Part shown: one piece after another, positions 14,647 through 31,423 of the stretch
Position numbering within the stretch: the first letter of the stretch is position 1
How the letters are laid out: every line of letters begins with the position of its first letter
Assembly: GCA_903870415.1 (NCBI GenBank)
Contig: CAIQDA010000046.1
Coordinates: forward strand, 1 to 37,729
Reading direction: 5' to 3'
Origin: an uncultured delta proteobacterium
GTDB taxonomy: Bacteria; Myxococcota_A; Polyangia; Polyangiales; Polyangiaceae
Length of the DNA: 37,729 nucleotides
Translations under genes and position numbers: made by a program
Notes under the pieces: model-generated
What the model was told of the DNA's origin: nothing
Seen by the model: only the letters and a program-made list of their open reading frames with translations
Database searches by the model: none

Positions 14647-17510
14647 GAAGCGTAGTCTTCCATCGGCGGGCACGTGCACACCAGGTTTCGATCACCGAAG
14701 GCGTTGTTCACGCGCGCCACGTGGGGCCAGAACTTTCGCGCACGGACCCATGGGGCTGGAAACGCCGCGGTTTGCCTATCGTAGCTGTGCTTCCACTCGG
14801 AGGCCGTCACGTGCTCGGCGGTGTGCGGCGCGTTCTTGAGCGGGTTGTCGTCCTTCGGAAGGCGACCCTCTTCGACCGCGCGAATTTCTTCGCGGATGGC
14901 GATCATGGCCTCGCAGAAGCGATCGAGTTCCGCCTTCGATTCGCTCTCGGTGGGTTCGACCATGAGCGTGCCGGCGATGGGCCACGACATGGTTGGCGCG
15001 TGGAATCCGTAATCCATGAGGCGCTTGGCGACGTCCTCGACCTCAACGCTCGCGGTCTTCTTGAACGCGCGAAGATCGAGGATGCACTCGTGGGCAACGC
15101 GACCGTTCGTGCCCGTGTAGACGATGGGGAAATGCGCCGCGAGTCGCGTGGCCACGTAGTTCGCGTTGAGGATCGCCAGCTCCGTGGCCGCCTTGAGACC
15201 GTCGCCGCCCATGAGTCGCGCGTAGACCCAGGAAATCAGCAGGATACTCGCGCTGCCCCAAGGGGCTTGGCTCACAGGACCGAGCGCCTGCGCGCCGCCG
15301 ACCTTCACCTCCGGATGACCGGGGAGAAACGGCGTGAGGTGCGAGGCCACGCCGATGGGACCCATGCCAGGGCCGCCGCCGCCGTGCGGAATGCAGAAGG
15401 TTTTGTGCAAGTTCAAATGGCACACGTCCGCGCCGAAATCGCCTGGGCGGCACAAGCCGACTTGCGCGTTCATGTTCGCGCCGTCCATGTAAACCTGGCC
15501 GCCGTTCTCGTGAACGATGGAGCAGATGCGGCGAATCTCTTCCTCGAACACGCCATGCGTCGAAGGGTACGTGACCATGAGCGCCGCGAGATTGTGCGCG
15601 TTCGCCTTCGCCTTCGCTTCGAGATCGGCAATGTCGATGTTGCCCTTTGCGTCGCAGCCAACGACGACGACGTTGAAGCCAGCCATGACCGCCGATGCCG
15701 GGTTCGTGCCGTGGGCGCTTGACGGAATGAGGCACACGTTGCGGGTCACGTCGCCACGCGAGCGATGGTACGCGCGGATGACGAGAAGGCCGGCGTACTC
15801 GCCCTGCGAACCGGCGTTTGGTTGAAGCGAGATGCCTGCAAAGCCTGTGACTTCGCGGAGTATGGCCTCAAGCTCGTGAATGACGACCTGGTACCCCTGC
15901 GCCTGCTCAAGCGGCACGTATGGGTGGATGCCGTTCCAGTGCGCGTCGGTGATCGGCATCATCTCGGCGGTCGCATTCAGCTTCATGGTGCATGAGCCGA
16001 GCGGAATCATCGAGTGGCAAAGCGAGAGGTCGCGGCCTTCGAGGAGACGCAAGTACCGGAGCATTTCGTGCTCGCTGCGATGCGCATGAAACACGGGATG
16101 CGTTAGGTATTTCGACGTACGACGAAGCGCAGCCGGAATCATGCTCGATGCGCGCAACGCAAGCTCGGTCGCCTTCGACGCCGTAGCTCCGAGAAACACG
16201 TAAAGCAGATCGTCGAGGTCTGCGGCCGACACGGTTTCGTCGAGAGCAACGGCGAAGGTGGTGGCTCCAAAGCGCCGAAGATTGATGCGTTTTTCCGTAC
16301 AACGCGCGGCAACCTTGGACGCGTGATCGGCGCTCGTCTCGACACGCACAGTGTCGAAGAACGCCGTGTCCGCGACCGCGAGTCCGCCTTCGCGAAGACC
16401 GAGCGCGAGGGTGGCGGCAGCTCCGTGAACGCGCTCCGCGATGGCCTTAAGGCCCTCAGGGCCATGGTAAACGGCATACATGCTCGCGGTGACCGCAAGG
16501 AGCGCCTGGGCCGTGCAGATGTTGCTCGTCGCCTTCTCGCGCCGAATGTGTTGCTCGCGGGTTTGCAGCGCCATGCGAAGCGCGCGGTTGCCGTGAACGT
16601 CTTGCGACACGCCGATGATTCGCCCTGGCAGCTTGCGCACGTAGTCGTTTTTGCACGCGAAGTACGCGGCGTGCGGCCCGCCGTAACCAAGCGGAACGCC
16701 GAGTCGTTGCGTGCTTCCGACCGCGATGTCCGCGCCGAGTTCACCCGGAGGCGTGAGTACGGTGAGCGCGAGAATGTCGGCGGCCACGATGGCCAGTGCG
16801 CCGTGCTCTTTGCTCTTCGCAAGGAACGCGCGCGGGTCGTCGAGGCGACCGTCGGTTTCCGGATACTGAACGACCGTCGCAAAAACCTTCGTCGCGAAGT
16901 CGAACGTCGACGCGTCGCCAACGATGACGCCAATGGCGAGGGCGTCTGCGCGCGTGCGAATGACTTCGATGGTCGCCGGGTGACATGCGCTCGAGACGAA
17001 GATCGTGTTGCGCTCGTCGGAGCCGGTGAACCCGTATGCGAGGCTCATCGCTTCGGCGGCCGCGGTGGCTTCGTCGAGAAGCGAAGCGTTGGCGATCTCG
17101 AGGCCGGTGAGGTCCGATACGAGCGTCTGGTAATTGAGAAGGGCCTCAAGGCGACCCTGGGAAATTTCAGCCTGATAGGGCGTGTACTGCGTGTACCAGC
17201 CCGGATTCTGAATCACGTTGCGGAGAATGACCGGGGGCGTGATGGTGCCGTTGAAACCGTTGCCGATGTAGCTGCGCCAAACGTCGTTCATCGCGCCAAG
17301 CTTGTTCGCCAGCGCGAGAACCTCGGCTTCACCAATGGGCGCGGGAATGTCGAGAGCCGCGTGCAGGCGAATCGTGCTGGGCACGGTTTCGTCGACGAGA
17401 CTCGCAAGGGTCGTCGCGCCAATGGCATCGAGCATCTCGCGCGTTGCGACGGAGGAAGAGCCCAGGTGCCGAGCGGAAAACACATCCGGATGCGCAAGCG
17501 AGACGGCCAT
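14643..17510 (-). CDS. gcvP: Glycine dehydrogenase (decarboxylating), P-protein
   Basis: 955 aa, the full-length single-chain form of the PLP enzyme that decarboxylates glycine and passes the aminomethyl group to lipoyl H-protein. The N-terminal half has [10 protein letters not shown] and [26 protein letters not shown]. The C-terminal half has the PLP lysine in [17 protein letters not shown] (Lys703) and the glycine-rich loop. I chose the ATG at 17510 with GAGG six bases upstream; the open frame runs on for 95 more residues without similarity. gcvT, gcvH and lpd are not nearby. No glycine riboswitch signature is visible in the 508-base leader. Confidence 0.97.
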
Positions 17511-17680
17511 GACGAACCTCAATGATTCAGCAGTTCGGCGCCTCGCTAGCCCATGGGCACGGGGATTCAAGCGCGGTGACGCTCGACCCCAAGCGCGGGT
17601 TAAGCGCTCTTTCGCGAGCGCAACGATTTCGCAATTGAGCAATTTTGCATGGAAAAATCGCGTTTGTGCCCCAAGAGCGC

Positions 17681-17709
17681 TTGCATCCGAAACTCGAGCG
17701 ACGCATAAC
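17681..17709 (+). promoter_or_regulatory. Weak candidate sigma-70-like promoter for the sRNA
   Basis: TTGCAT (17681-17686) and CATAAC (17704-17709) are separated by exactly 17 bases. The -35 box matches only three of six consensus bases and the -10 box four of six. It would start transcription near 17716, just ahead of the first hairpin of the candidate sRNA. Spacing and position, rather than box quality, make it worth noting. Confidence 0.3.
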
Positions 17710-17715
17710 TTCATC

Positions 17716-17845
17716 GTGGGCCGGCGTTTTGGAAATCCCCCCATTTCCATACGCACTGGGCCGCGAGTCGGTTCGCTCCCCTCCCCCCTCCCCAAAGCGG
17801 GCCGACTCCCTGAACCCGGTTGAAAGACCGGGTTCAGCCTTTTTG
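17716..17845 (+). ncRNA. Candidate three-hairpin sRNA with C-rich loops
   Basis: Three consecutive hairpins are visible. Hairpin 1: TGGAAAT (17730-17736), loop CCCCCC, ATTTCCA (17743-17749). Hairpin 2: a 12-bp stem, GAGTCGGTTCGC (17765-17776) with GCGGGCCGACTC (17797-17808), including two G-U pairs; its 20-base loop (17777-17796) is almost only C and U. Hairpin 3: an 11-bp stem, CTGAACCCGGT (17810-17820) with ACCGGGTTCAG (17827-17837), followed by CCTTTTT. The T-tract exists only on the plus strand, which sets the direction. Exposed C-rich loops are the known way several sRNAs (RsaE, cuckoo-type RNAs) pair with Shine-Dalgarno sequences. The 5' end is inferred. Confidence 0.6.
17810..17844 (+). 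terminator. Strong intrinsic terminator of the candidate sRNA
   Basis: An 11-bp perfect stem with a six-base loop TGAAAG is followed by CC and five T. The gene to its left on the plus strand is absent, and both flanking genes run on the minus strand, so this terminator has no conventional client. Confidence 0.85.
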
Positions 17846-17985
17846 GGGACGCTCAAGGACGTTTAAGAACGCCGAGGGCGACGAACTGAGGCGTGCCGAC
17901 GCCGAGAGCCCGCAGGCCTTCGCGCTGAAGTGTCCCCCCGGAAACAACGCGGGGCAGGACGCTCAAACGCCCCGCCCCGTTTTTA
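17846..17985 (+). ncRNA. Possible second, tandem sRNA
   Basis: Directly after the first terminator comes another plus-strand structured stretch. It has hairpin GGCGT-GCCG-ACGCC (17890-17903), hairpin CTTC-GCGCT-GAAG (17918-17930), an unpaired run of six C (17934-17939) and a final terminator-like hairpin (17949-17985). GGACGCTCAA occurs both at its start (17847-17856) and in the last loop (17957-17966). No promoter is obvious. It may instead be only the 3' region of the minus-strand sigma-factor gene. Confidence 0.3.
17949..17985. terminator. G+C-rich terminator, best on the plus strand
   Basis: CGGGGC (17950-17955) pairs with GCCCCG (17974-17979), followed by six T on the plus strand. An alternative register pairs GCGGGGC with GCCCCGC (17969-17975). 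On the minus strand the following bases are only weakly T-rich, so it could end the sigma-factor transcript less efficiently. Confidence 0.6.
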
Positions 17986-18018: not shown

Positions 18019-18678
18019 TCAGGCCACGTAGCGGTCGCGCTCAAGCGCCGTGCGAAGCATCTGCATCGCGCGGCCGTGAAGCTGCGAGATGCGTGGCTCG
18101 CTCACCGCGAGATGCTTGGCGATGAGCTTGAACGGAACGGCCTGAAAGTAGTGCATGCGCACAATGTGGCGCTCGCGCTCGGGCAATTGCTCGATTCCGC
18201 GCTCAATCATTTGACGGACGGAGCGCTCTTCGGCCTCGTCGCCGGGCCGTGCGCCGTCGTGGTCTTCGAGCAAGCGCGAGAGCATGTCCGGCGGAAGGTC
18301 GTCGAACCCGACCACGTGTGCACGCTGGGACGCCGCAACCTCGCTGCGACCTTGCTCCTGGGTCACACGGGTGCGGGCGCGCCGCGAGAGCCAGTCTTGC
18401 GAACGGAGCTCGTCAAGAATCGCGCCGCGGATGCGAATGCGCGCGTACCACTCGAACGTGGGGCCCGTGGCCATTGGGCTCTTCTGCACGGCGTCGATAA
18501 GCCCGATCGTCCCCGCGGCGACAAGGTCGTCCCGCAGCACGTTCGGCGGGAGGCGCTTCAGGAACCGCGCGACGACCTGATGAACGAGCCCCATGTGCAC
18601 GGTCAGTGTCTCCGCGCGAAGAGTCCGCACAGGCGGCTTCGCGACGACCTTGGGCTTTTCCTCACGAACCTTCTTCAT
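18019..18678 (-). CDS. RNA polymerase sigma factor, FliA/WhiG type
   Basis: 219 aa sigma-70-family protein. Region 2 is HMGLVHQVVARFLKRLPPNVLRDDLVAAGTIGLIDAV and WYARIRIRGAILDELRSQDW, the FliA/WhiG form of the core-binding and -10-recognition region. Region 3 follows (RRARTRVTQ...). Region 4 is LPERERHIVRMHYFQAVPFKLIAKHLAVSEPRISQLHGRAM, with the helix-turn-helix for -35 recognition. The N-terminus is Lys/Pro-rich. No flagellar genes or anti-sigma gene are adjacent; the nearest clear process is the type IV pilus operon 1.4 kb away. Its regulon cannot be read from this window. Confidence 0.9.
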   Translation of the reverse strand: MKKVREEKPKVVAKPPVRTLRAETLTVHMGLVHQVVARFLKRLPPNVLRDDLVAAGTIGLIDAVQKSPMATGPTFEWYARIRIRGAILDELRSQDWLSRRARTRVTQEQGRSEVAASQRAHVVGFDDLPPDMLSRLLEDHDGARPGDEAEERSVRQMIERGIEQLPERERHIVRMHYFQAVPFKLIAKHLAVSEPRISQLHGRAMQMLRTALERDRYVA

Positions 18679-30028: not shown

Positions 30029-30103
30029 CGCGCTCAGCGAAAAAGACGCGTGGCGGAGCCCGAGGAGCAAGCTAGGGTGCGGGCCGTTTCGCGGAGTTCG
30101 TCC

Positions 30104-31423
30104 ATGCCCCACTACAGCGCCAAGTTTCAGTGTTTCGCCGGCTGCGAAGGGTCTTACCCTGTCACGAAGGCCCTCTACCGTTGCCCCACGTGCGGAGGCC
30201 TCCTCGAGGTGAAGCACGACATGAACGCGCTGCGCGATCGCAGTGCTGCCGCGTGGATGCGCACGTTCGAAGAACGCTACATGCGCACGTCTTGGCCCTA
30301 CGGCAGCGGCGTTTGGGGCAAGCGCGAGTGGGTCATGCCCGAGGTCACCGACGACGCAATCGTCTCGACGGGCGAAGGCGGAACGAACCTCTTTTGGGCC
30401 GAGCGCCTCGGCAAAGAGATCGGCCTGCCCGACCTGTGGATCAAGCAATGCGGCAACGCCCACACCGGGTCGTTCAAAGATCTCGGCATGACGGTGCTCG
30501 TGTCCGTCGTGCGACACGCGATGAAGATCGGCGACCTGGCCCCCCGCGCCATCGCTTGCGCGTCCACCGGCGACACGTCCGCGGCCCTCGCGGCCTATGG
30601 CGCTGCTGCGGGCCTTCCGGTCGTCGTGCTGCTCCCCAAGGGCAAAGTTTCGACCGCGCAGCTCGTGCAGCCACTCGCGCACGGCGCCAAGGTTCTTGAA
30701 CTCGAGACCGACTTCGACGGCTGCATGGAGATCATCCAGAAGCTCGCCGCCGAGGGACTCATCTACCTCGCCAACTCGATGAACCCGCTCCGCATCGAGG
30801 GCCAGAAGACCGTCGCCATCGAGATGACCCAGCAGTTTGACTGGCAAGTTCCCGACTGGGTCGTGATTCCCTCGGGCAACCTTGGCAACGCATCGGCGCT
30901 CCACGCGGGCTTTGAAATGATGCGCGAGCTTGGGGTCATTCAGCGCATGCCGCGGCTGCTCGTCGCTCAGGCCGCAAACGCGAACCCCATGTACCGGGCC
31001 TTCGTCGCGGGCACCGAAGAGGTCAGCCCCATCGCCGCGCAGAAGAGCCACGCGAGCGCCATCCAGATTGGCAATCCCGTCAGCGCCCCGCGTGCGATGC
31101 GAGCGCTCAAGGCCATGAACGGCGTCGTTGAACAGGCCTCGGAGCAAGAGCTCGCGGACGCGTGTGCCCGCGCCGATCGCACCGGGCTTTACACGTGCCC
31201 CCACACCGGCGTCGCCCTCGCCTGCGTCTTCAAAGCCCGCGAAAAGGGCATCATCAAAGCGAACGAGCGGGTCATCGTCGTGTCGACGGCAAACGGACTC
31301 AAGTTCACCGAGTTCAAGCTCGGGTACCACGAGAAGGCGTTCCCCGAACTCGACTCGCGCCTGCGCAACCAGCCCATCGTTCTTCCCGCGAACGTCGACG
31401 CGGTCAAAGAAGCCCTCGGCTGA
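30104..31423 (+). CDS. thrC: Threonine synthase
   Basis: 439 aa PLP enzyme converting O-phosphohomoserine to threonine. An N-terminal zinc-ribbon-like segment has two Cys pairs (CFAGCEG...YRCPTCGG). The PLP lysine is in [10 protein letters not shown] (Lys125), and the phosphate-binding and substrate loops are [19 protein letters not shown] and [15 protein letters not shown]. The ATG at 30104 has GGAG nine bases upstream; the open frame starting at 30050 lacks similarity. No hom or thrB is adjacent. It converges with the CarD-like gene; a run of ten G lies just after the stop (31438-31447). Confidence 0.95.

Follow-up and report, generated by a model that had tools for sequence, protein, structure and literature searches.

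Bacterial small RNAs (sRNAs) of the RsaE/RoxS and cuckoo/CcsR kinds cover ribosome-binding sites with C-rich single-stranded motifs, that of CcsR/cuckoo being CCUCCUCCC, and the 6C RNA (RF01066), described from Actinobacteria, has two adjacent hairpins with at least six C in each loop. In the mycobacterial 6C RNA called B11, either C loop represses a reporter with the eccB4 5′ UTR, which carries a G6 tract, and repression is lost only when both loops are mutated (PMC10470900). The only myxobacterial sRNA with a studied function in the literature searched is Pxr of Myxococcus, in which one C-to-A change in the loop of stem-loop SL1 is reported to abolish developmental control (PMC5684412). Here we compare with these RNAs a candidate sRNA gene from a presumably freshwater relative of Polyangium (Myxococcota), found in a stretch of 37,729 nucleotides (the window), which an earlier sequence-only reading had likened to RsaE and cuckoo. 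The gene and its parts are the following:

17681-17709, plus strand: promoter-like element TTGCAT-17-CATAAC, inferred from conservation
17714-17845, plus strand: sRNA gene as modelled by covariance model R1 from homologs and covariation, expected 5′ end ~17714-17716, 3′ end 17844
17716-17764, plus strand: hairpin 1 with extended basal stem (17716-17726 pairs with 17752-17764 in the fold)
17737-17742, plus strand: C6 loop CCCCCC of hairpin 1
17765-17808, plus strand: hairpin 2, 12 bp, or 13 bp with an 18-base loop if a T-A pair is closed
17777-17796, plus strand: C/U-rich loop UCCCCUCCCCCCUCCCCAAA of hairpin 2, presumed target-binding site, nearly invariant in the genus
17810-17844, plus strand: intrinsic terminator, a 12-bp stem (17810-17837) with a GAAA loop, then CCTTTTT to 17844

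The sequence-only reading had described a plus-strand series of three hairpins between two minus-strand genes (gcvP, starting near 17510, and a sigma-70-family gene at 18019-18678), and the series lies at the positions it gave. The 7-bp apical stem of hairpin 1 (TGGAAAT/ATTTCCA, 17730-17749) does carry six C in its loop, and the 12-bp stem of hairpin 2 with its 20-base C/U loop, which holds three C blocks, is exactly as described. The terminator ends in CCTTTTT as claimed, but on a stem of 12 bp instead of 11. That the T-tract orients the element to the plus strand agrees with the folding energies, as the plus strand reaches z = -4.0, with none of 200 shuffles as stable, vs -1.2 for the minus strand. 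Beyond the gene, at 17948-17984, lies a G+C-rich stem that is probably a two-way terminator of the sigma gene, as it has TTTTT on its plus-strand side and, less marked, a T-tract on the other strand as well.

A consensus scan upstream of the sRNA found no canonical sigma-70 site. What the three species of the genus have in common there is TTGC, a 17-base spacer and CAT, at a nearly equal distance to hairpin 1, the counterparts of the window's element being TTGCGA-17-CATACA in G001 and TTGCAT-17-CATGTT in G002. Since the scan leaves this element unscored, we call it promoter-like by its conservation, and not a demonstrated promoter; from its position, transcription is expected to start near 17714-17716 and to give a transcript of ~130 nt. 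The locus thereby shows what is generally expected of an intergenic trans-acting sRNA, namely a promoter (by conservation only), an intrinsic terminator and a conserved non-coding structure. A 10-base inverted repeat, AAGCGCTCTT/AAGAGCGCTT, at 17602-17611 and 17673-17682, spans the divergent region between gcvP and the sRNA and touches the -35-like element; the aligned portions of G001 and G002 do not show it.

Strong DNA matches to the locus occur in only 2 of 59 related genomes, G001 (81% identity over the aligned parts) and G002 (89%), which represent the other two species of the genus, and the sRNA is present in both, the three homologs scoring 156, 146 and 124 bits with R1. When the three species are aligned on the named structure, 98.4% of the cells are paired, and sliding the partners by 1-3 columns leaves 25-45% paired. 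Seven pairs are changed on both sides, a covariation limited by the small number of sequences that exist, three of them close and two distant. The terminator stem has five pairs altered on both sides, whilst the stem of hairpin 2 is almost invariant in the genus (13 of 13 pairs kept, one of the 13 varying). In hairpin 1, the apical stem of G001 shows an A-U to G-C pair change under a UCCCCC loop, and an 8-base deletion in G002 removes the old apical stem, where a new 5-bp stem with a CUCCCC-type loop is formed; G002 has also lost one base within loop 2. Deletions accompanied by a re-formed C-loop stem place the constraint on the hairpin with its C loop, not on a coding frame.

R1 was also searched against 108 genomes of the family, 184 of the order and 379 of the phylum. 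Beyond the genus only one match stood up, in G091, of another genus of the family, with 33.6 bits (E 0.004 for that genome), which is weak on its own among 108 genomes. It is strengthened by three independent observations. A second genome of that genus, G111, which the strict filters of the large searches missed and which scores 36.4 bits when R1 is applied directly, has the same element with compensation in the stem; loop core and arm are common to the second genus and the window; and CTTGC precedes the hairpin as it does in the first genus. G091 and G111 both have a hairpin of 11-13 bp with a terminator after it, in whose stem a T-A pair is compensatorily replaced by C-G. The loop contains the core CUCCCCCCUCCCCA, and the motif GGTTCGC-N4/5-CTCCCCCCTCCCCA is common to them and the window with nearly equal spacing. 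Hairpin 1 is absent from this second genus, which has a shorter form of the RNA. The 14-base core has 12 exact copies among the 108 family genomes, of which just the four belonging to the two genera form part of a hairpin of this kind followed by a terminator. In a third species of the second genus, G065, the contig breaks off at the promoter region and the hairpin itself cannot be seen; a 19-base match to the hairpin arm in its genome was dismissed as chance. Just downstream of the G091 RNA is a short dispersed, partly tandem repeat (L066, L158-L166, genus g62), which G091, G103 and G065 carry in dozens of copies.

Further away, G071 (22.4 bits, with a CCCCTCCCCAA loop and a terminator) may hold a third version of the sRNA, and the other weak R1 matches were set aside as strong hairpins without C loops. 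A search of 290 genomes of the class with the loop-and-arm pattern returned only the five known copies and three sequences that do not fold that way, and the searches of the order, class and phylum, whose strict filters are those that missed G111, gave no further copy. In these searches no convincing copy of the sRNA came to light outside the two genera.

The same evidence bears on what else the locus could be. A small plus-strand protein gene, or an unannotated mRNA of that strand whose 3′ end falls here, is suggested by a mechanical ORF (17302-17823, plus) overlapping the sRNA, but the upstream part of this ORF is antisense to gcvP, no ATG lies inside the sRNA, and the GTG frame from 17716 stops after 16 codons in G001. 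This early stop, with the indels of 8 and 1 bases in G002, excludes a conserved reading frame, and we find such coding scarcely credible. The element could also belong to the minus strand, as a riboswitch-like or G-quadruplex 5′ leader of gcvP, given the GGGGAGGGGGGAGGGG on that strand upstream of the gene and the adjoining gcvP in G001, where the sRNA is divergent from it as in the window and converges on its other side with a PALP-family gene (a homolog of window 30050-31423). In G002, however, this PALP-family neighbour is kept and gcvP was not found beside the sRNA in the contig stretch examined; as the RNA persists there, it is not part of gcvP. The T-tract, the weaker minus-strand fold and the lack of an Rfam match also speak against such a leader, and we hold it to be very improbable. 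Neither gcvP nor the sigma gene is thus a fixed partner, which makes the sRNA its own gene, and the conserved context is not the gcvP-sigma neighbourhood in which the sequence-only reading had suggested comparing homologs.

A lone terminator next to C-rich hairpins arising by chance might be expected in a G+C-rich genome where terminators are common (5 found, 3.2 expected). Against this, 24 Mb of simulated sequence with the dinucleotide make-up of the window gives an expectation, per window strand, of 0.006 for a hairpin whose loop holds a C6 run and whose stem has at least 12 bp, and of 0.0016 if the stem has 13 bp, so that hairpin 2 alone would appear at a rate below 0.01, and none of the simulated hairpins (stem of at least 12 bp) was followed by T5 within 70 nt. 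In 1.2 Mb of the related complete genome G033 there was no C6-loop hairpin with a stem of at least 9 bp and a T-tract within 70 nt, and the idea that C-loop terminators are abundant in the family found no support there. Since chance would also have to produce conservation with compensatory changes, we give it almost no weight. A real sRNA could still act otherwise than by pairing with mRNAs, if its C-rich loops titrated a protein that binds C-rich RNA (e.g., Rho, or one of the cold-shock or KH-domain kind); like a protein site, the core CUCCCCCCUCCCCA persists from one genus to the other. Studied C-loop RNAs of like shape (B11/6C), however, pair with G tracts, and loop 1 varies (CCCCCC, UCCCCC, CUCCCC) in a way that suits G-tract pairing; titration is on balance improbable.

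As far as genome comparison can tell, then, the compensatory changes, the promoter-like element, the terminator, the lost reading frame and the changed neighbours give good support to an sRNA gene on the plus strand, and on these grounds the candidate of the sequence-only reading is borne out. That the gene at 17714-17845 is real and new we consider nearly certain. The aligned sequences themselves show on which strand it lies, how it folds and where it terminates, that the promoter-like element and the loops are conserved, and that no reading frame is.

Such a gene would be free-standing and trans-acting, ~130 nt long, with a putative promoter of its own near 17681-17709 on the plus strand and its end at the terminator at 17844. 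Its two stable hairpins would keep the C-rich loops open, and the likeliest partners of these loops are G-rich Shine-Dalgarno regions (GGGGAGG, GGAGGGG, G6) in several mRNAs, where pairing would keep the ribosome from binding. Each loop could partly stand in for the other, as in 6C/B11. We infer that the RNA is expressed, that it pairs with ribosome-binding sites and thereby represses, and that it has several targets, and the pairing seems soundly argued by analogy with RNAs of like shape such as B11; taken jointly, a free-standing sRNA acting through its C loops on G-rich ribosome-binding sites is in our judgement probable. The weakest step of the earlier interpretation is that of a broad translational regulator, because a strict search for complements of the loops gave few real gene starts and none that is conserved. 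The pattern GGGGAGGG-N3..12-ATG occurs at 33 places in three genomes vs 8 for the reversed pattern, an excess that could come from ordinary Shine-Dalgarno bias, and only a few of these sites head convincing genes (named by eye), such as an nhaA-like gene in G000 and a cheW-like gene in G001. The strict pattern gave no target common between species in the three genomes: at the best candidate in G000, the nhaA-like gene, GGGGAGGGGA has ten bases complementary to loop 2, but this site is not kept in the G001 relative, and the gene was not found in G002.

How far the sRNA belongs to a described family can be judged from Rfam. At gathering thresholds, a scan of the window gave no match, RsaE/RoxS included, and the best match of the sRNA is 6C, over its full length, at 28.2 bits (E 0.095), where the gathering cut-off is 47. 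Run over 98 genomes of the family, the 6C model gave one match above the cut-off, with weak ones no more numerous than expected by chance, and none above it in the genus of the sRNA. In the same family, L031 (G092:C301, 1432-1509) scores 48.4 bits, above the 6C cut-off, and has two C-loop hairpins with TTTCTCATTTT after the second, contamination being possible. In L032 (G106:C40, 22-115) a 15-bp hairpin with a ACCCCCCC-type loop is repeated in tandem, the two copies being nearly identical and each having a T-rich stretch after it. A further sRNA-like C-loop element, L036, lies in a complete genome of the family (G033:C1 near 11324653), where a hairpin with loop CGTCCCCCCCC precedes two others and a terminator.

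For Pxr, SL1 was taken from the published primers and probe (PMC5568312), of which the printed 3′ end of the probe disagrees with the printed primer beyond the SL1 hairpin, for which reason only SL1 was used. This stretch, GCTGAAGGTGGTTCCCCCCACCCCTTCAGC, folds into a strong hairpin with a UCCCCCC loop, and the Pxr literature text searched contains no description of the loop as C-rich. On this folding, the loop critical to Pxr function consists of six C at the tip of a strong hairpin and so resembles 6C RNA. Nothing in common between the sRNA and Pxr was found in sequence beyond the C run, and the Pxr probe pattern is absent from the sRNA's own genome (up to 3 mismatches) and from the 379 phylum genomes (up to 1 mismatch), among which none of those searched provided a positive control.

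The kind of RNA is thus already known, and what is new is the family, the lineage and the parallel with Pxr. That C-loop RNAs of the 6C kind form an old, recurrent layer of translational control in Myxococcota, comprising the window's sRNA, the shorter form of the second genus and Pxr, is an unlikely proposition; if true, the developmental switch of Pxr would cover G-rich ribosome-binding sites by means of its six-C loop. In any case the phylum would have, besides Pxr, another C-loop sRNA unrelated to it. Its mycobacterial analogue has been studied by experiment, and the analogy offers a concrete, testable mechanism, a C loop set against a G-rich ribosome-binding site, with the critical loop of Pxr apparently of the same kind.

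Compared with the described systems, the sRNA resembles 6C in its two adjacent hairpins with at least six C in each loop (17737-17742 and 17777-17796), and differs from it in the 20-base, three-block loop 2, in the extended stem of hairpin 1 and in its myxobacterial host. With Pxr of Myxococcus xanthus (~110 nt) it has in common the phylum, three stem-loops and a C6 loop in a stable hairpin, whereas Pxr has nla19/pxrR for a neighbour and a promoter of the sigma-54 type, and the sRNA lies beside gcvP and a sigma-70-family gene, or a PALP-family gene (G001, G002). RsaE and cuckoo, which the sequence-only reading took for its models, are more distant, given the absence of an Rfam match over threshold and of the CCUCCUCCC motif from the loops, and the closest analogues are 6C/B11 and Pxr, 6C/B11 being the best one for the mechanism. 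Being below the 6C cut-off, without the sequence or location of Pxr and without an Rfam match, the sRNA is best filed as a new family of C-rich-loop sRNAs, which would work like 6C/B11, and perhaps like Pxr, whilst belonging to neither.
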